Source of the DNA: Reyranella massiliensis 521
GTDB lineage: Bacteria > Pseudomonadota > Alphaproteobacteria > Reyranellales > Reyranellaceae
Assembly (NCBI RefSeq): GCF_000312425.1
Contig: NZ_HE997181.1
Coordinates: 4,468,045 to 4,532,044, forward strand
Direction: 5' to 3'
Length of the DNA stretch: 64,000 nt
The notes below the pieces were generated by a model. It did not search any database. It saw only the letters and a list, made by a program, of their open reading frames with translations, and was not told the origin of the DNA. The translations under genes and the position numbers were made by a program. The stretch's first letter is position 1. Every line of letters starts with the position of its first letter. Of the stretch, positions 27,401 through 35,920 are shown piece by piece.

Positions 27401-28555
27401 ATGTCTAAAAAGACCTTTGCTCCCGCATCGCTCGCAGCGCAAGCCATGGGCTGGATCGATCCGGTTACCAAAGCCATCGTACCCCCCATTCACATGGCGA
27501 GCACGTACTTACGGGACGAGGACAACGGCTATCGCTCCGGCCGCATCTACGCCCGCGCCGACAATCCCACGTTCGATCAGGCCGAGACAACCCTGGCGGC
27601 TCTCGAAGGCGGGGCCAAGGCCCTGATCTTCTCCTCGGGCATGAGCGCCGCCACGGCCTGCTTCCTCGCGCTCGCGCCGGGTGACCATGTCGTGGCCTCG
27701 AAGGTCATGTACTGGGCGTTGCGCAACTGGCTGATGACCTTTGCCACCCATTGGGGCCTGAAAATCGACTTCGTCGACGCCGACCGCACCGATGACGTGG
27801 CCGCCGCTGTGAAGCCCGGCGTCACCAAACTGGTCTGGATCGAGACGCCGGCCAACCCGACCTGGTGCGTGGCCGACATCGCGGCAATAGCCGACATCGC
27901 GCACAAGGCCGGCGCACTGCTGGGTGTCGACTCGACCGTGGCAACGCCGGTGCTGACACGGCCGATCGAGCATGGCGCCGACATCGTCATGCACTCGGCA
28001 ACGAAGTACCTGAACGGACATTCCGACATCATCGCCGGTGCGCTGGTCGGCGCGCGCGACGACGCCTATTGGGCGAAGCTCCGCACCATCCGCGCGCAGC
28101 TCGGTACGATCCTCGGCCAAACCGAGGCGTGGCTGCTGATGCGCGGCATGCGGACTCTGTTTCCGCGTGTCGCCTGGGCCTGTCGCTCGGCCCAGACGCT
28201 CGCCGAAAAGTTTGCCGCCCATCCGATGGTGGCCGAGGTGCTCTATCCCGGCCTGCCCTCCTTTGCTGGCCACCAGGCTGCCGCTCGTCAAATGACCGGT
28301 GGCTTCGGCGGCATGCTGTCGGTGCGCGTGAAGGGTGGTGAGCGCGCGGCCATCGCGACGGCGGCACGGGTCGAATTGTGGAAGCGGGCGACATCGCTGG
28401 GCGGTGTCGAAAGCCTGATCGAACACCGTGCCAGCATCGAAGGCCCCGGCACCCCTTGCCCGCCCGACCTGCTGCGCCTTTCCGTCGGCGTCGAGGAGGC
28501 GAGCGACCTGTTCGACGATCTCGACCAGGCATTGAAGCGCGCGCACAACGCCTAG
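27401..28555 (+). CDS. metC: Cystathionine beta-lyase / Cys-Met metabolism PLP enzyme
   Basis: A 384-residue PLP enzyme of the cystathionine gamma-synthase/beta-lyase superfamily. The PLP lysine is K202 in HSATKYLNGHSD. YARADNPT (50-57) and FSSGMSAA are the substrate and phosphate sites. Sequence style is closest to enzymes annotated as MetC or generic trans-sulfuration proteins; lyase versus gamma-synthase or O-acetylhomoserine sulfhydrylase cannot be separated by eye. No SAM-II element was found upstream, unlike metX. Its TAG shares CTAG with the convergent gene. Confidence 0.85.
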   Translation: MSKKTFAPASLAAQAMGWIDPVTKAIVPPIHMASTYLRDEDNGYRSGRIYARADNPTFDQAETTLAALEGGAKALIFSSGMSAATACFLALAPGDHVVASKVMYWALRNWLMTFATHWGLKIDFVDADRTDDVAAAVKPGVTKLVWIETPANPTWCVADIAAIADIAHKAGALLGVDSTVATPVLTRPIEHGADIVMHSATKYLNGHSDIIAGALVGARDDAYWAKLRTIRAQLGTILGQTEAWLLMRGMRTLFPRVAWACRSAQTLAEKFAAHPMVAEVLYPGLPSFAGHQAAARQMTGGFGGMLSVRVKGGERAAIATAARVELWKRATSLGGVESLIEHRASIEGPGTPCPPDLLRLSVGVEEASDLFDDLDQALKRAHNA

Positions 28556-29544
28556 GCGCCGAGAGAGAATCCCTCGCGCAATGGATCGTTGGCGTCGAAG
28601 CGAAACCGGCTCTCGCCGGTGATGTGAGCCTGGCCACCGACCTCGACGATCACGGCCTTGCGCGGGCCAACGGCTGGCGCGTCGCGCACGATGCGGCCGC
28701 TGAAATGGGCGCCGGTGCAGCTCTCGAACAGCCGTTCCTCGCCGGCACGAACCTGCCGCCGCGCCGCCATCAACGCCATGCGCGCGGTGACACCACTGCC
28801 GGTCGGGCTGCGGTCGATCTGGCGGCCGGCGAAGATGCAGACGTTGCGGCTCGCCTGTCCGCTCGCGCCATCGCCGCCATCGGTCAGGATCGTGCCGTAG
28901 AGAAAAGCGAGGTCGGGCTCCGACGGATGCTCGATCGGAATGGCCTTGGCCGCCGCCAAAGCTATCTCCTCGCCAGCATCGACGATGGCCCGCATCGGCG
29001 ACGTCTTGAGATTGAGCCCGATCGAGTCCGCGGCCAAGATCGCGTAGAAAGCGCCGCCATAGGCGATATCGACCGTCACCGGTCCCCAGGTCGCGGTGGG
29101 CGCGATGCGGTCCAGCGCATAGGCGAAGGCCGGCACGCTCTCGAAGCGAACCGTGCCGTCGGCCGCGACGCGCGCCGTAACCAGGCCACAGGGACATTGC
29201 AGGCGCACGATGGTCTCGGGCTCGGTGCGCGCCACGCGGCCGCTTTCGACCGACCAACGCGCCAAAGCGATCGTCGCGTGCCCGCACATGGTGCTGTAGC
29301 CCTCGTTGTGCATGAACAGCACGGCGAGATCGGCCTCCGGATGATCGGGCTCGACGAGCAGGGCGCCGTACATGCCGTCGTGACCACGCGGCTCCAGCAT
29401 CAGGCCGCGCCGCAGATGATCGAAGCACTCCTTCGCCTCGCGCCGCTTGTCGAGCAATGTCTTGCCGGAAAAGACCGGCCAACCGCCGACGATGATGCGC
29501 GTGGGCTCGCCACCCGTGTGCATCTCGACGGTCGAGAGGATCAA
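28552..29544 (-). CDS. Proline racemase family protein, probably trans-3-hydroxy-L-proline dehydratase
   Basis: A 330-residue member of the proline racemase fold. The first catalytic residue is C87 (STMCGHATIAL). The position of the second catalytic Cys is T248 (DRSPTGSG), the Cys/Thr pair that marks trans-3-hydroxy-L-proline dehydratases. The best start is a TTG at 29544 that overlaps the acyl-CoA dehydrogenase stop (TTGA) and gives the expected short N-terminus before EMHTGGEP. It would make pyrroline-2-carboxylate. It is cotranscribed with the upstream dehydrogenase. Confidence 0.85.
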   Translation of the reverse strand: MILSTVEMHTGGEPTRIIVGGWPVFSGKTLLDKRREAKECFDHLRRGLMLEPRGHDGMYGALLVEPDHPEADLAVLFMHNEGYSTMCGHATIALARWSVESGRVARTEPETIVRLQCPCGLVTARVAADGTVRFESVPAFAYALDRIAPTATWGPVTVDIAYGGAFYAILAADSIGLNLKTSPMRAIVDAGEEIALAAAKAIPIEHPSEPDLAFLYGTILTDGGDGASGQASRNVCIFAGRQIDRSPTGSGVTARMALMAARRQVRAGEERLFESCTGAHFSGRIVRDAPAVGPRKAVIVEVGGQAHITGESRFRFDANDPLREGFSLGA

Positions 29545-30886: not shown

Positions 30887-32242
30887 ATGGGGTCGGTAAT
30901 TTCGCCACCAGACGAGTCGATTCCAGTTCCCGACGGCGGTGACGTCGAATTCGACGGCCCGCGCTTTACCGCCTACTGGCGGCAGCTCGCCGGCAAACTC
31001 GCCCAGCTCCCGCCCAAGCCGCAACGCGACGACAAGGCCTATGCCGAGGCGGAGGCGCTAAAGCAGGCGGCGCGCGACGCCCGGTTCGCCTTCCTGCGCC
31101 GCTATGCCGTTTCGATCTACGACAGACTGACCGCCAACCGGACCAAGTTCGTGCGCATCGAGCGGCTGGTCTACGACGCGGCCGATCTGGTGCCGGGCCT
31201 CGCCCCGACCCGCACCGAGGTCGCCGCCGAAGCCGAGCTGCGCCAGTCCGAAAAGGAAGGCGTCGAGATCGACCAGGGCATCCTCTGCAATCAGTTCCTG
31301 GCGGATCCCGGCTGCGGCATGCACCTCTGCCACGCCATGCTGCTGCCACGCGAGGAATCGGCGGACGCCCTCGCCAAGTTCCAGCGCGACGGCCGGCTCG
31401 ACCTCGGCTTTGCGAAGGTCGAACGCCAGGGCAAGGCGGCCGTGCTGCTGCTGGCCAACCGCCGCTTCCTCAATTCCGAGGACAATTCGACCCAGACTGC
31501 GACCGAGATCGGCGCCGATGTCTGCATTCTCGACCGGCAGAGCGAGGTCGCGGTCCTGCGCGGCGACGTCGTACCGGAAGGCAAGTACGCCGGCCGCCGG
31601 GTCTACAATGCCGGCATCAACCTCACGCACCTCTACTACGGCAAGATTCCGTTCCTCTGGTTCCTGGTCCGCGATCTGGGCTTCGTGAACAAGATGTTCC
31701 GCGGCCTCGCCCGGCCCGACGTCTCGCCCGACGAAGTCGCCGGCGATTCGATCGAGAAGCTATGGATATCGGCGGTCGAGACCTTCGCCATCGGCGGCGG
31801 CTGCCAGATTCTGCTGGCGACCGATTTCAACATCGCCGGCCGCGATGCCTACATGACCCTGCCCGCGCGCAAGGAAGGCATCATCCCGGCAATGGCAAAC
31901 CTACGGATGGCGCGTTTCGTCGGCGATCGCCTCACCCGCCAGGCGATCATGTACGAGCGTCGCATCGACTGCGATTCCGATGTCGGCCGAATGATCTGCG
32001 ACGAGGTCGTGGCCCCGGCCGATATCGATGCCACGATCATCAAAGTCATCGATCGGCTGACCGGATCGGGTGCCGTCGGCGCCATCGGCAACCGCCGCGC
32101 CCTGCGTCTCTCGGCGGAACCGCTCGATCTCTTCCGCCGCTACGCCGCGCTCTATGCCCGCGAGCAGGCCTACTGCCATTTCAGCCCGGCGCTGATCTCG
32201 AACCTCGAACAGTACTGGAACGCCCAGAGCAGACGGGCCTGA
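30887..32242 (+). CDS. DpgC-like (3,5-dihydroxyphenyl)acetyl-CoA 1,2-dioxygenase / crotonase-fold protein
   Basis: A 451-residue protein, much longer than ordinary enoyl-CoA hydratases. An extra helical N-terminal region (about 1-175) precedes a crotonase core. Segments LNSEDN (195-200), YAGRRVYNAGINLTHLYYGK (234-253) and FAIGGGCQILLATDFNIAG (300-318) recall DpgC, which uses no metal or cofactor to oxygenate an aryl-acetyl-CoA in glycopeptide-antibiotic pathways. E198 may match the DpgC active-site Glu. No other Dpg genes are present, so the substrate is open. An atypical hydratase is the alternative. Confidence 0.75.
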   Translation: MGSVISPPDESIPVPDGGDVEFDGPRFTAYWRQLAGKLAQLPPKPQRDDKAYAEAEALKQAARDARFAFLRRYAVSIYDRLTANRTKFVRIERLVYDAADLVPGLAPTRTEVAAEAELRQSEKEGVEIDQGILCNQFLADPGCGMHLCHAMLLPREESADALAKFQRDGRLDLGFAKVERQGKAAVLLLANRRFLNSEDNSTQTATEIGADVCILDRQSEVAVLRGDVVPEGKYAGRRVYNAGINLTHLYYGKIPFLWFLVRDLGFVNKMFRGLARPDVSPDEVAGDSIEKLWISAVETFAIGGGCQILLATDFNIAGRDAYMTLPARKEGIIPAMANLRMARFVGDRLTRQAIMYERRIDCDSDVGRMICDEVVAPADIDATIIKVIDRLTGSGAVGAIGNRRALRLSAEPLDLFRRYAALYAREQAYCHFSPALISNLEQYWNAQSRRA

Positions 32243-32254
32243 CTCCGGAGCCGA

Positions 32255-32917
32255 TCAACCTCCGGCCATCAGGTCGGCAAGAGTTGGATCGGCGGCGAGT
32301 TCGGACGCCGTTCCGGAGCGCACGATGCGACCGCGGCTCAAGACGAGTCCGCGCTGGGCGACACGAAGCACGAGCCCCGCCCGCTGCTCCGCCACCAGGA
32401 TCGCCATGCCCTCCGCGGCCATGGGACCAAGCCGGCCGAGCAGATCGCCGACCACCATCGGCGCGAGACCGAGAGTAGGCTCGTCCAGCAAGAGAAGCCG
32501 CGGCCGGTGCATCAGCGCCCGCGCCAAGGCCAGCATCTGTTGCTGGCCACCCGACAGCAGCCAGGCCCGCGCCTCTGGCCGCTCGCCGAGCATGGGAAAC
32601 ATTGCCAGCATTTCCTCGACGCGACGCCGTCGCTCGGCGGGCACCAGCGACGAAGAGGCTTCGAGGTTCTCGCGCACCGTGAGGCCCGCAAAGACGCGGC
32701 GCCCCTCGGGCACATAGCCAACGCCTGCCAGCACGCGCCGCTCGACCGGCCAGCGCGTCACGTCTCGTCCGAACAAATGAACGGGCCTCGTCGACGGGCG
32801 GAAGCCCAGGATCGATTCGAACAGGCTGGTCTTGCCGGCGCCGTTGCCGCCCAGCAGCGCCACGATATCGCCGGCGGCAAGCGCAAGGCCGCCGACCTGC
32901 AGGACCGGCCTGCTCAT
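32255..32917 (-). CDS. livF: Branched-chain amino-acid type ABC transporter, ATP-binding protein LivF
   Basis: A 220-residue ATPase with Walker A GGNGAGKTS (26-34), signature LLSGGQQQ, and Walker B LLLLDEP followed by TLGLAP, typical of LivF. The N-terminus is short: between LQV and GDIVALLG about 15 residues are missing, the stretch that normally carries the A-loop aromatic that stacks on adenine. Start ATG 32917 overlaps the LivM-LivG stop as ATGA. An upstream in-frame ATG would lie in the preceding gene and add no family sequence. Confidence 0.88.
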   Translation of the reverse strand: MSRPVLQVGGLALAAGDIVALLGGNGAGKTSLFESILGFRPSTRPVHLFGRDVTRWPVERRVLAGVGYVPEGRRVFAGLTVRENLEASSSLVPAERRRRVEEMLAMFPMLGERPEARAWLLSGGQQQMLALARALMHRPRLLLLDEPTLGLAPMVVGDLLGRLGPMAAEGMAILVAEQRAGLVLRVAQRGLVLSRGRIVRSGTASELAADPTLADLMAGG

Positions 32918-34446
32918 GCCGCGGCCTCTTCGACACCGAGGAAGCTGGCGCGTACCGTGGGATCGGCGCGGACCTCGGCCGGACGGCCGATTGCAATCAC
33001 GGCTCCCCGGTCGAGGCAGATCAAGCGATCGCAAGTCCGCGACAACAGCTCGATGTCGTGATCGACGATCAGCACGCCGCGATCCGCCGCGCGCAGCCGC
33101 GCGATCAAGCTCGCAAGCTCGGCCCGGTCACGGTCCGTAGCGCCTGCGGCCGGCTCGTCGAACAACAGAAACGATGCGCCGGTGGCGATGGCACGCGCGA
33201 TATCGGTGGTACGCGTATCGTCGGCCAATGCGAGGCTCTGGAAGCTGCGACCGACGCCTGAACGCGCGATGGCGTGCGGCGGCAGATGGTCGATGCGGCG
33301 CGCGTCGAGCGTGATCGTGCCGCCGTCGGCACGTTCGAGCCCTCCGATCACGTTCAGGAGCGTCGTCTTGCCCGATCCGTTGGCGCCGATCAGGCCGACG
33401 ACCTCGCCGCGCTCCAGCGCGAAGGAAACACCTTGCAAGGCGGCAACACCGCCGAAGTGCTTGGAAACGCCGTCGAGGACGAGCCGCCGCGGTCCGTCGA
33501 CAGCCTCCAGAGCCACGGGAAGGACTGCCGACGCCGGCAGCAGGGCCCGGACGCCACGCCAGCGATCGATCAGAGCCGCCAACCCTTCGGGCGCCCACAA
33601 CACGACCAGCAGCGTCGCCGCAGCGTAGGCAAGCAGCCACGCCCCCTGCAGGTCGCGCAGAAGTTCGGGCAGGCAAACGGCGATCGCGGCCCCCAGGACG
33701 GCGCCCATCGCATGACGCGCCCCGCCTAGAACCACGGAGGTAAGACAGAGGACCATGACGGAGAAGCCGGTTACATCCGGCGACACGACGCCGCTCAGGG
33801 TTGCCGAGAAGGCGCCAGCCAGTCCTGCCAGGGCACTACCCGCCACAAACGCCTTGAGACGCCAGCGGCCACCGTCGATGCCACTGGTGGCAGCCACCAT
33901 CGGTGCTTCACGCAACAGCCGGGCCTGTTCGCCGATCGGCCCGGAGAAAAGGCGGGCCTGCACGAGGATGACGGCGATCAGGCAAAGCCAAACGGCAACG
34001 AGGAGGACCGGCCCGCGCGGCAGCGACGCCGTGAACCCAACCAGCCCGTTGGCGCCGCCGGTCAGGCTCTCGGCATGAACCGCCGCCAGATGGATCAACG
34101 ACGCAAGCGCAAGCGTCGCCAGCGCGAAGTAGTGCGACTGCAGGCGCAACATCGGCCCCGCGACGATCGCTGCCGGCAGCGCGGCCGCCAGCATCGCCAG
34201 AGGCAACGACAGGAGCCCCAGAGCCGGCGCGGTCAAGGCAACAGCGTAGGCACCAACGCCGAACAGCGCGCCCTGCGCCAGATTGAGCGCACCGAGCTGT
34301 CCAAAGACGAGCTGATAGCCGACGCCCATCAAGCCGTAGATACCAACCAGGATCGCCATGCGCTGGCCGAACGGCGGCAACAGGAGCAGCGCCATTGTCG
34401 GCACCAGGACAAGGATGGCGAGCCAGAACCTGCCCAGCGGTCGCAT
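32914..34446 (-). CDS. Fused LivM permease - LivG ATPase, ATPase part lacking the signature motif
   Basis: A 510-residue fusion. Residues 1-300 form a LivM-type permease (VFGQLGALNLAQGALFGVGAYA; GARHAMGAVLGA). Residues 320-508 are a LivG-type ATPase with Walker A GANGSGKTT (354-362), Q403, Walker B FLLFDEP (426-432) and H-loop H463. Only 27 residues separate Q403 from D430, where LivG normally has about 80. The helical subdomain and LSGGQ-type signature are gone, with the reading frame kept. Paired with LivF, one ATP site would be degenerate. Fusion of LivM and LivG itself is known; the deletion is unusual. Confidence 0.85.
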   Translation of the reverse strand: MRPLGRFWLAILVLVPTMALLLLPPFGQRMAILVGIYGLMGVGYQLVFGQLGALNLAQGALFGVGAYAVALTAPALGLLSLPLAMLAAALPAAIVAGPMLRLQSHYFALATLALASLIHLAAVHAESLTGGANGLVGFTASLPRGPVLLVAVWLCLIAVILVQARLFSGPIGEQARLLREAPMVAATSGIDGGRWRLKAFVAGSALAGLAGAFSATLSGVVSPDVTGFSVMVLCLTSVVLGGARHAMGAVLGAAIAVCLPELLRDLQGAWLLAYAAATLLVVLWAPEGLAALIDRWRGVRALLPASAVLPVALEAVDGPRRLVLDGVSKHFGGVAALQGVSFALERGEVVGLIGANGSGKTTLLNVIGGLERADGGTITLDARRIDHLPPHAIARSGVGRSFQSLALADDTRTTDIARAIATGASFLLFDEPAAGATDRDRAELASLIARLRAADRGVLIVDHDIELLSRTCDRLICLDRGAVIAIGRPAEVRADPTVRASFLGVEEAAA

Positions 34447-34460
34447 CTCAGAGACCTGCC

Positions 34461-35291
34461 TCAGGCACGTCGGCCAACCGGCTCGCCGAACAAGCCCTGC
34501 GGACGCAGGACCAGCACCGCGAGCACGGCAAGATAGAGCGCCGCTGACGCCCAGGCATCGCCCACGGCCGCGGATACGAAAGTCTCGAACAGGCCGATGC
34601 CCAGCGCGCCGAGCAGCGCTCCCGGCACACTGCCCCAGCCACCGATTGCGACGGCGATATAGGCCTTGAGCATGTGGCCGGCACCCTGGGTCGGCGCCAC
34701 GAGGAACTGGTGGCCGAGCAGAAAACCCGCGATGCCGGCCAAGGCGCCGGCCAGCGCCAACGACAGGACGACATAGCGCGCGACGGGAATGCCCACGGCC
34801 CGCGCCATGTGTCGATCGGCGGACACGGCACGCATGCGCCGCCCGGTCTGCGTACGCTCCAGCAGGAACCACACCGCGGCGACCAGAATCATGCCGACAA
34901 CGACGATGGCGAGCGGTTGCCGGCCGAGGACGACACCGCCGATCTCGACAGCACCGGCGCCGAGCAATGGCGGCGCGGTGCGCGGCGCAGCCCCCATGGT
35001 GACGGTGAGACCCTGTTCGATCATCGCGGCAAGCGCGATGGTGGCGACGAACGTCGCTTCAGGTGGGCGAGCGGCCAGCGGCAGGATCGCGATCCGTGCC
35101 GCAGCAATGCCGGCGACACCGAGCGCCAGCGCCACGAGCGGCAGCAGCAACACCCCAGGCAGCCCGGTCCACAAGCCCGCGACGACGGCCGCCGCGCCGC
35201 CCAGCACAACCAGATCGCCATGAGCGAAGTTGACGGCGCCGACGGCGTTGAGAGCAAGGACGAAGCCCAGCGCAATCAGAGCGTAGGCCAT
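34461..35291 (-). CDS. livH: Branched-chain amino-acid type ABC transporter permease LivH
   Basis: At least 276 residues, with about eight helices. LivH hallmarks are ALNAVGAVNFAHGDLVVLGG at the start and AIGGWGSVPGALLGALGIGLFE later. The ATG at 35291 cuts into the first helix. Extending to a CTG at 35333, which overlaps the regA stop as CTGA, adds LITAQLLLNALALG and gives the normal 290 residues, so a non-standard start there is plausible. It is probably translationally coupled to regA. Confidence 0.88.
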   Translation of the reverse strand: MAYALIALGFVLALNAVGAVNFAHGDLVVLGGAAAVVAGLWTGLPGVLLLPLVALALGVAGIAAARIAILPLAARPPEATFVATIALAAMIEQGLTVTMGAAPRTAPPLLGAGAVEIGGVVLGRQPLAIVVVGMILVAAVWFLLERTQTGRRMRAVSADRHMARAVGIPVARYVVLSLALAGALAGIAGFLLGHQFLVAPTQGAGHMLKAYIAVAIGGWGSVPGALLGALGIGLFETFVSAAVGDAWASAALYLAVLAVLVLRPQGLFGEPVGRRA

Positions 35292-35329
35292 GCCCAACGC
35301 CAGGGCGTTGAGCAGAAGCTGGGCGGTGA

Positions 35330-35920
35330 TCAGTGTTCGCGGGGGGCGTGCTTGCCCAGGATCCGCTGCAGCGTACGCCGATGCATGTTGAGACGGCGCG
35401 CCGTCTCCGAGACGTTGCGATCGCACTGCTCGAACACGCGCTGGATATGCTCCCAGCGAACGCGGTCGGCCGACATGGGATTGCTGGGTGGCGGCGGCAG
35501 CTTGCGGCCATGCGCCGTCAACGCCTGCTCGATCGCATCGGCATCGGCGGGCTTGGCGAGATAGTCGACCGCGCCTTCCTTCACGGCGGCGACGGCGGTG
35601 GCAATGTTGCCGTAACCTGTCAGCACGACGATGCGGATATCGGGCCGTGCCTGACGCAACGGGCCGACCAGCTCGAGCCCGTTGCCGTCGCCGAGACGCA
35701 GATCGAGCACGGCGAAAGCAGGCGGGCGGGCCGTCTGTGCCAGCGCCTCGGCAACCGAGCCGACGGCAGTCACGATAAAACCGCGCTGCTCGAGGGCCCG
35801 GGCAATGCGGTTGCGGAACGCCGCATCGTCGTCCGCGATCAGCAAGGTACGGTCCTTGTTGCTCGTCGCGCCGGCGATGACGGGCGACACGGGGCGGTTG
35901 CCACCGGTGTCCTGGGTCAT
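35330..35920 (-). CDS. regA: Redox response regulator RegA/ActR/PrrA
   Basis: A 196-residue response regulator. The receiver domain has acidic residues D30-D32 (IADDD), phospho-acceptor D73 (VLDLRLGDG) and K in LAKPAD. The C-terminal Fis-type helix-turn-helix NVSETARRLNMHRRTLQRIL is the nearly invariant DNA-reading helix of RegA/PrrA/ActR. Known family members control photosynthesis, respiration, nitrogen or carbon fixation by redox state. It lies 23 bases after its kinase gene and directly before the liv transporter genes. Confidence 0.95.
   Translation of the reverse strand: MTQDTGGNRPVSPVIAGATSNKDRTLLIADDDAAFRNRIARALEQRGFIVTAVGSVAEALAQTARPPAFAVLDLRLGDGNGLELVGPLRQARPDIRIVVLTGYGNIATAVAAVKEGAVDYLAKPADADAIEQALTAHGRKLPPPPSNPMSADRVRWEHIQRVFEQCDRNVSETARRLNMHRRTLQRILGKHAPREH

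Follow-up and report, generated by a model that had tools for sequence, protein, structure and literature searches.

A Liv-type ABC importer of Reyranella that is probably reduced to one complete ATP site

Members of the genus Reyranella carry a Liv-type importer (LivH, a LivM-LivG fusion and LivF) in which probably a single complete ATP site is left. The usual description of an ABC ATPase is of a domain with two lobes; two such domains form a dimer that closes around two ATPs, and each ATP lies where the core of one subunit meets the signature and D-loop of its partner. In the transporter described here, site 1 would consist of the LivG core and the LivF signature, and site 2 of the core of LivF together with the signature and D-loop of LivG; this allocation, and the roles of the Walker motifs and of the A-, Q-, D- and H-loops, follow general knowledge of ABC ATPases. 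The motifs of site 1 are retained in 35 of 35 orthologues, whereas site 2 is eroded on both sides. At the level of sequence, one composite site is consensus and the other is not, as in asymmetric transporters with one degenerate site. The features of the locus are given below by their coordinates in the window, that is, the whole stretch of 64,000 nucleotides of Reyranella massiliensis 521 that was analysed.

30887..32242, plus strand: DpgC-like gene, bordering the operon downstream (369 bits to NCBIfam NF042432, under the cut-off of 530)
32255..32917, minus strand: livF, 220 aa, whose start overlaps livMG by 4 bases (ATGA) at the end of that gene
32531..32557, minus strand: LivF signature LSGGQQQML, residues 121-129, site 1; identical in 35/35
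32828..32851, minus strand: LivF Walker A GGNGAGKT, residues 23-30, site 2; intact here, broken in one subclade
32867..32917, minus strand: shortened LivF N terminus, residues 1-17, site 2, from the alignment; the NCBIfam LivF model aligns from its position 25 onwards only
32914..34446, minus strand: livMG, encoding 510 aa in which a LivM permease is joined to a LivG-type ATPase that has no helical subdomain
32917..33489, minus strand: LivG-type nucleotide-binding domain (residues 320-510), consisting of just the RecA-like lobe (AlphaFold2 model and structural alignment with LptB)
33058..33060, minus strand: LivG switch His463, site 1; [VI]DHD in 35/35, here VDHD at 461-464
33151..33171, minus strand: LivG Walker B and catalytic Glu, FLLFDEP, residues 426-432, site 1; DEP in 35/35
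33160..33237, minus strand: deletion junction, residues 404-429, 26 aa, where the helical subdomain and signature (65-90 aa) normally lie
33238..33240, minus strand: LivG Q-loop Gln403, site 1; 35/35 orthologues
33364..33387, minus strand: LivG Walker A GANGSGKT, residues 354-361, site 1; GxNGSGK[TS] in 35/35 orthologues
33640..34359, minus strand: LivM permease domain, residues 30-269 (Pfam BPD_transp_2, E 2.8e-30)
34461..35360, minus strand: livH, second permease subunit (Pfam BPD_transp_2, E 3.2e-34); start codon uncertain
35330..35920, minus strand: response regulator gene of the RegA/PrrA/ActR type, bordering the operon upstream (291 bits to NCBIfam NF033791, against a cut-off of 250)

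The livMG coding sequence runs from 34446 to 32917 on the minus strand, with its stop codon at 32914-32916, and holds 510 codons with zero internal stops. An initial annotation of this DNA had described a fusion in which Walker A, Q-loop, Walker B and H-loop are present while the helical subdomain and signature are absent with the frame intact. All four motifs were located, at residues 354-361, 403, 426-432 and 461-464, and the open frame and the alignment with LptB bear out the absence. The same annotation had counted 27 residues between Gln403 and the Walker B Asp430, against roughly 80 in LivG; the shortening holds and the comparison is fair, given the 65-90 residues of fused relatives that have a helical region, but the exact count is 26. 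Pfam ABC_tran is matched at residues 337-410 by profile positions 1-73 only, of 137, and BCA_ABC_TP_C, the LivG tail, at residues 483-507. The PDB protein LptB aligns to the nucleotide-binding domain as two separate stretches with the middle absent, and the NCBIfam LivG model likewise matches it in two pieces. A missing segment hidden in another frame was considered and rejected, as just 78 bases separate the codons for Gln403 and Asp430.

AlphaFold2 returned a mean pLDDT of 88.4 for the whole livMG product and a pLDDT of 93.8 for LivF. In the predicted model, the 185 LivG residues 320-504 superpose on 235 residues of LptB (4p33_A, 2-236) with Z 26.5 and an rmsd of 1.3, which indicates that about 50 residues, the helical subdomain, are gone and that the RecA-like lobe is whole. 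This lobe also superposes on MJ1267 (1gaj, Z 23.4), and LivF superposes on TM1139 (1ji0, Z 29.4). All three reference proteins, unlike LivG of Reyranella, have a helical subdomain, and some 50 LptB residues find no match in the LivG domain. LivG retains the helix that other ABC proteins have after the signature (predicted at 412-421). Before this helix comes a joining turn, G-[DE]-[TS]-[RK], with G in 31, D/E in 32, T/S in 29 and R/K in 33 of the 35 orthologues; being fairly conserved, the joining loop is not random, though LSGGQ is absent, and the turn could derive from either side of the deletion. The LivM coupling segment, around Arg179-Gly189, is near-invariant among orthologues. Because the helical subdomain normally helps to hold the permease coupling helix, coupling on the LivG side must be altered. 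Taken alone, the LivG domain has Walker A, Q-loop, Walker B with its Glu, and switch His (35/35), and the LSGGQ signature is missing from its own chain; the importer belongs to the LIV family by descent, with a LivG that falls short of the definition of a complete ABC ATPase. Scores against the NCBIfam models are 136 bits for LivG (cut-off 362) and 166 bits for LivF (cut-off 441), and the full-length relatives L069 (155) and L073 (202.6) also fall under the LivG cut-off.

The initial annotation had proposed an alignment of orthologues from related genomes, and this placed the deletion in all 35 distinct orthologues (34 genomes and contig L057, with L022 cut by a contig end). A livMG orthologue was found in 34 of 65 genomes of the genus (E up to 1e-60), with 64-87% identity where the match was full length or nearly so, and the gene is open in all 34 carriers, one being cut by a contig end. 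Apparent internal TGA codons in four genomes (G005, G001, G041 and G042) lie where the match overruns an earlier livMG stop, before which the frames are open. The transporter is missing from 31 of the 65 genomes, and is therefore dispensable. The spacing from the Q-loop to Walker B is 20-26 residues in all 35 orthologues, as against 65 in the relative L069, 69-90 in 10 other aligned relatives and 65-89 in further fused ones. A tree made without the helical columns, by a quick method and with long branches flagged near the root, grouped the shortened proteins together (SH-aLRT 98) with L069 as their sister (100); a single origin of the deletion is therefore enough. In the sister lineage (L069/L184, VGCH01000001.1), the operon occupies the same place between RegA and DpgC and the fusion protein is 58% identical. 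Its helical region, unlike that of the shortened proteins, is cut but present, with LAPGE in place of LSGGQ. The N-terminal segment is present in LivF of this lineage, where Arg stands in for the usual aromatic residue.

No full deletion was found in a second genus among 385 genomes of the class and 76 of the order sampled, nor among the best 80 matches of a pattern scan of genome contigs, although rare or distant cases could escape these searches. Three short matches (L143, L144 and L145) were considered as extra deletions and rejected, at least 65 residues being retained there. Four contigs from metagenome-assembled genomes with Reyranella-type or related operons (L056, L065, L057 and L075) bear the titles Asaia bogorensis, Chloroflexi or Klebsiella pneumoniae, and are likely to be mislabelled or mis-binned.

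We compared the two composite sites motif by motif. At site 1, LivG KxFGGV (with the A-loop Phe), GxNGSGK[TS], Gln403, DEP and [VI]DHD, together with LivF LSGGQQQML, are each present in 35 of 35 orthologues. At site 2, the D-loop Leu of LivG is retained in 1 of 35 orthologues, compared with 11 of 11 relatives. Beyond what the initial annotation had in view, LivF has lost parts of this same site: by alignment, the approximately 15 N-terminal residues that carry the A-loop position in relatives are missing in 35/35. Walker A of LivF is altered in 5 of 35 orthologues, its Walker B Glu is replaced by Gln in 3, and its C-terminal part is lost in 3, while its D-loop, a site-1 element, shows a small change in 4. 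Nearly all losses lie on site 2, site 1 being kept apart from the D-loop change of LivF. Since Walker A of LivF is intact in 30 of 35 and Walker B in 32 of 35, most species may retain ATP binding at site 2. In R. massiliensis, the switch region of LivF reads VAEQR, with Gln replacing the switch His. At the livF-livMG junction, a small gap takes the place of the overlap in L022, L045 and L057.

LivF erosion goes furthest in a subclade of three (L021, L063 and L134) that forms one clade in the tree with a support of 100. Its LivF Walker A reads GDDSIAKT, GEDSAEKT or GEDSARKT, VPAG replaces VPEG, DQP replaces DEP, and the chain ends before the switch position; LSGGQQQML and the LivG core are both retained. 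As this LivF has no usable site of its own but keeps its signature, and the LivG core is kept, the LivG core with the LivF signature is the only complete pairing among the four possible half-site combinations. The C-terminal tail of LivG is also lost in this subclade, which could mark early decay. Milder Walker A changes, GGNRAGKT and GGTGAGKT, occur in LivF of L055 and L067.

Over 15 chosen close pairs, omega (Nei-Gojobori) was 0.05-0.32 in the LivG domain, 0.10-0.25 in LivF and 0.09-0.22 in LivM, and within the L021/L063/L134 subclade it was 0.05-0.27 by region. The shortened ATPase is under purifying selection. Orthologues that keep LSGGQ beside a gene under relaxed selection, the case named beforehand as counter-evidence, were not seen within the Reyranella clade. 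All 7 carriers examined, like L184 of the sister lineage, have livH-livMG-livF between the RegA and DpgC-like genes; in 6 of 6 non-carriers examined (of 31), these two genes adjoin, their matches lying 27-187 bases apart with no remnant of the operon. The transporter is constrained and either complete or absent, and does not look like a relic. Of the two possibilities raised by the initial annotation, natural asymmetry is favoured over decay, given the deletion in 35/35, the omega values and an operon that is either intact or cleanly gone. Taken together, the sequences suggest that the livMG transporter is conserved and probably functional.

Across the 34 carriers, the DpgC match lies within 4 kb on the same contig in 30; in the remainder it is 14 kb away (G061), on another contig (G005) or not found (G069 and G077). 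DpgC is a dioxygenase in the synthesis of glycopeptide building blocks. The DpgC-like gene occurs in 60 of the 65 genus genomes with or without the transporter, and we therefore claim no functional link. Some 30 bases may be shared by the livH frame and the end of the RegA gene, an arrangement also seen in L040 and L041. Elsewhere in the window, a gene of the proline racemase family (28552-29499, minus strand) adjoins an acyl-CoA dehydrogenase gene, an order kept in several congeners.

The binding protein was sought in the Peripla_BP_6 family only. The genome contains 36 matches to it, of which 35 are over the cut-off, and none of the family lies within 180 kb of the locus in this genome or within about 95 kb of the operon in the sister lineage. 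An unlinked binding protein may serve this transporter. The genome also holds many LivM and LivG matches.

In most respects the operon resembles known LIV/HAAT systems (LivHMGF; the urea system UrtBCDE), which have two BPD_transp_2 permeases, two ABC ATPases, a BCA_ABC_TP_C tail on LivG and the gene order livH-livM-livG-livF; relatives likewise have LivM-LivG fusions, with a helical region of normal size, and LivF of Reyranella shares with these systems both LSGGQ and Gln instead of the switch His. It differs in that LivG is without helical subdomain and LSGGQ, LivF is without the A-loop segment, and no Peripla_BP_6 gene lies within 180 kb. Signatures of LivG in the wider family, which the initial annotation did not consider, are non-consensus even without the deletion. 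Other Liv loci supplied 31 control domains. The switch His is replaced by Gln in all 17 that are LivF-like and present in all 14 that are LivG-like, and the latter have a signature without SGG, such as LAYGD or LTAGQ; the 31 domains are those caught by motif patterns in 24 loci, others having been missed, and as the classes were set by the signature itself, the His/Gln split is the sole independent observation. The control loci that show this asymmetry are L002-L010 and L025-L039. Among 30 fused relatives, LSGG[QE]Q is present in LivF in 30 and GG at the LivG signature in 3, a count that omits duplicates (L176, L182, L183 and L184), loci whose second ATPase could not be used or which are truncated at a contig end (L171, L173, L175 and L181), and L151, though it fits, with LPHGA in LivG and LSGGQQQML in LivF. 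Two loci of another family, L163 and L164 (G341 and G418), have LQRAWST and GALRLAD at the LivG signature positions and shortened LivF N termini; they keep a helical region of 65-78 residues, and possibly represent a parallel reduction in a separate lineage.

Ordinary Liv transporters therefore look asymmetric in general. Given this asymmetry and the intermediate states of L069 and L163/L164, site 2 seems to matter less across the Liv family, with Reyranella as the end point. No discussion of asymmetry in Liv transporters, and no paper on an ABC transporter nucleotide-binding domain without a helical subdomain, was found by searching open-licence PMC papers for exact words. TM287/288, TAP, CFTR, Pdr5 and BmrCD are ABC exporters with a degenerate nucleotide-binding site and, like the Reyranella transporter, are heterodimers with one consensus and one non-consensus composite site. 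These systems change by point substitution, whereas LivG of Reyranella has lost a whole subdomain and the site is still eroding; they are also exporters, and the Reyranella transporter comes from an importer family. Degenerate sites of exporters are said in a review (PMC7756269) to have stayed under evolutionary pressure.

We infer a pairing of LivG with LivF, ATP hydrolysis and transport by the resulting complex, and weak or absent closure of site 2. In the proposed mechanism, only LivF contributes a helical arm, which would act as a one-armed clamp on the ATP bound to LivG; the LivF signature would be supplied in trans to the LivG core at site 1, and hydrolysis there would drive the LivH/LivM permease. 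It is possible, at a little under an even chance in our estimate, that one site no longer forms at all, leaving LivF as the sole helical arm and LivG as the sole catalytic core, two complementary half-enzymes; under this single-site reading, that state would be most complete in the L021/L063/L134 subclade. As a counterpoint, the ABC importer DppBCDF is reported not to switch with a single bound ATP (PMC12136057). Alternatively, both sites could bind ATP, the G-[DE]-[TS]-[RK] turn and the retained helix replacing the signature in a degenerate, non-hydrolytic site. The conserved turn positions, the helix predicted after the signature and the Walker A of LivF that is intact in 30 of 35 would fit such an arrangement, which we nevertheless consider rather unlikely: the turn may stem from the opposite flank of the deletion, LivG no longer has the helical lobe by which a signature is positioned, LivF no longer has its A-loop segment, and one subclade has lost the LivF Walker A.

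Decay, in which the LivG deletion disabled the transporter and the remaining gene set is slowly eroding, would account for the 31 of 65 congeners without the transporter, for the subclade that has lost the ends of LivF and LivG, and for the absence of a linked Peripla_BP_6 protein. We judge it improbable, as 34 of 65 genomes retain an open livMG at 64-87% identity, omega in the LivG domain is 0.05-0.32, the catalytic residues of LivG are invariant, and no remnant was seen in 6 of 6 non-carriers examined; had the gene been dead since the ancestor of the clade, it would not have kept every site-1 residue at such divergence. LivG might instead be merely a structural platform, with a LivF homodimer doing the work or the complex borrowing another LivG. 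The many LivM and LivG matches and the 35 Peripla_BP_6 matches over the cut-off in this genome leave room for such borrowing, and one paper deals with ATPase exchange among type I importers (PMC7658222). A platform would not be expected to be covalently fused to LivM and to keep every catalytic residue in 35/35, and the A-loop segment of LivF is missing everywhere; as LivF of one subclade has neither Walker A nor Glu, its homodimer there would have no complete site, and we regard this explanation as quite improbable. An assembly or sequencing artefact carries practically no weight and was rejected: independent assemblies of 34 genomes at species level, together with one further contig, give 35 distinct sequences that all share the deletion (64-87% identity), the named isolate Reyranella soli NBRC 108950 (L068) among them. 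The best reading of these data is an importer that runs on a single ATP site, at the extreme of an asymmetry already seen in ordinary Liv transporters.

A second ATP site may or may not be required as a structural glue. For exporters, the review cited above argues that degenerate sites remain under selection (PMC7756269). One site has been preserved by selection in Reyranella and the other taken away; sister lineages show intermediates, and a subclade goes further. A pump in which one of two ATP-burning subunits is without about a fifth of its usual structure provides a natural test of minimal need, and if it transports, then the helical subdomain and the second ATP site are not both required. 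The Reyranella orthologues are ready-made natural variants for testing minimal ABC machinery.
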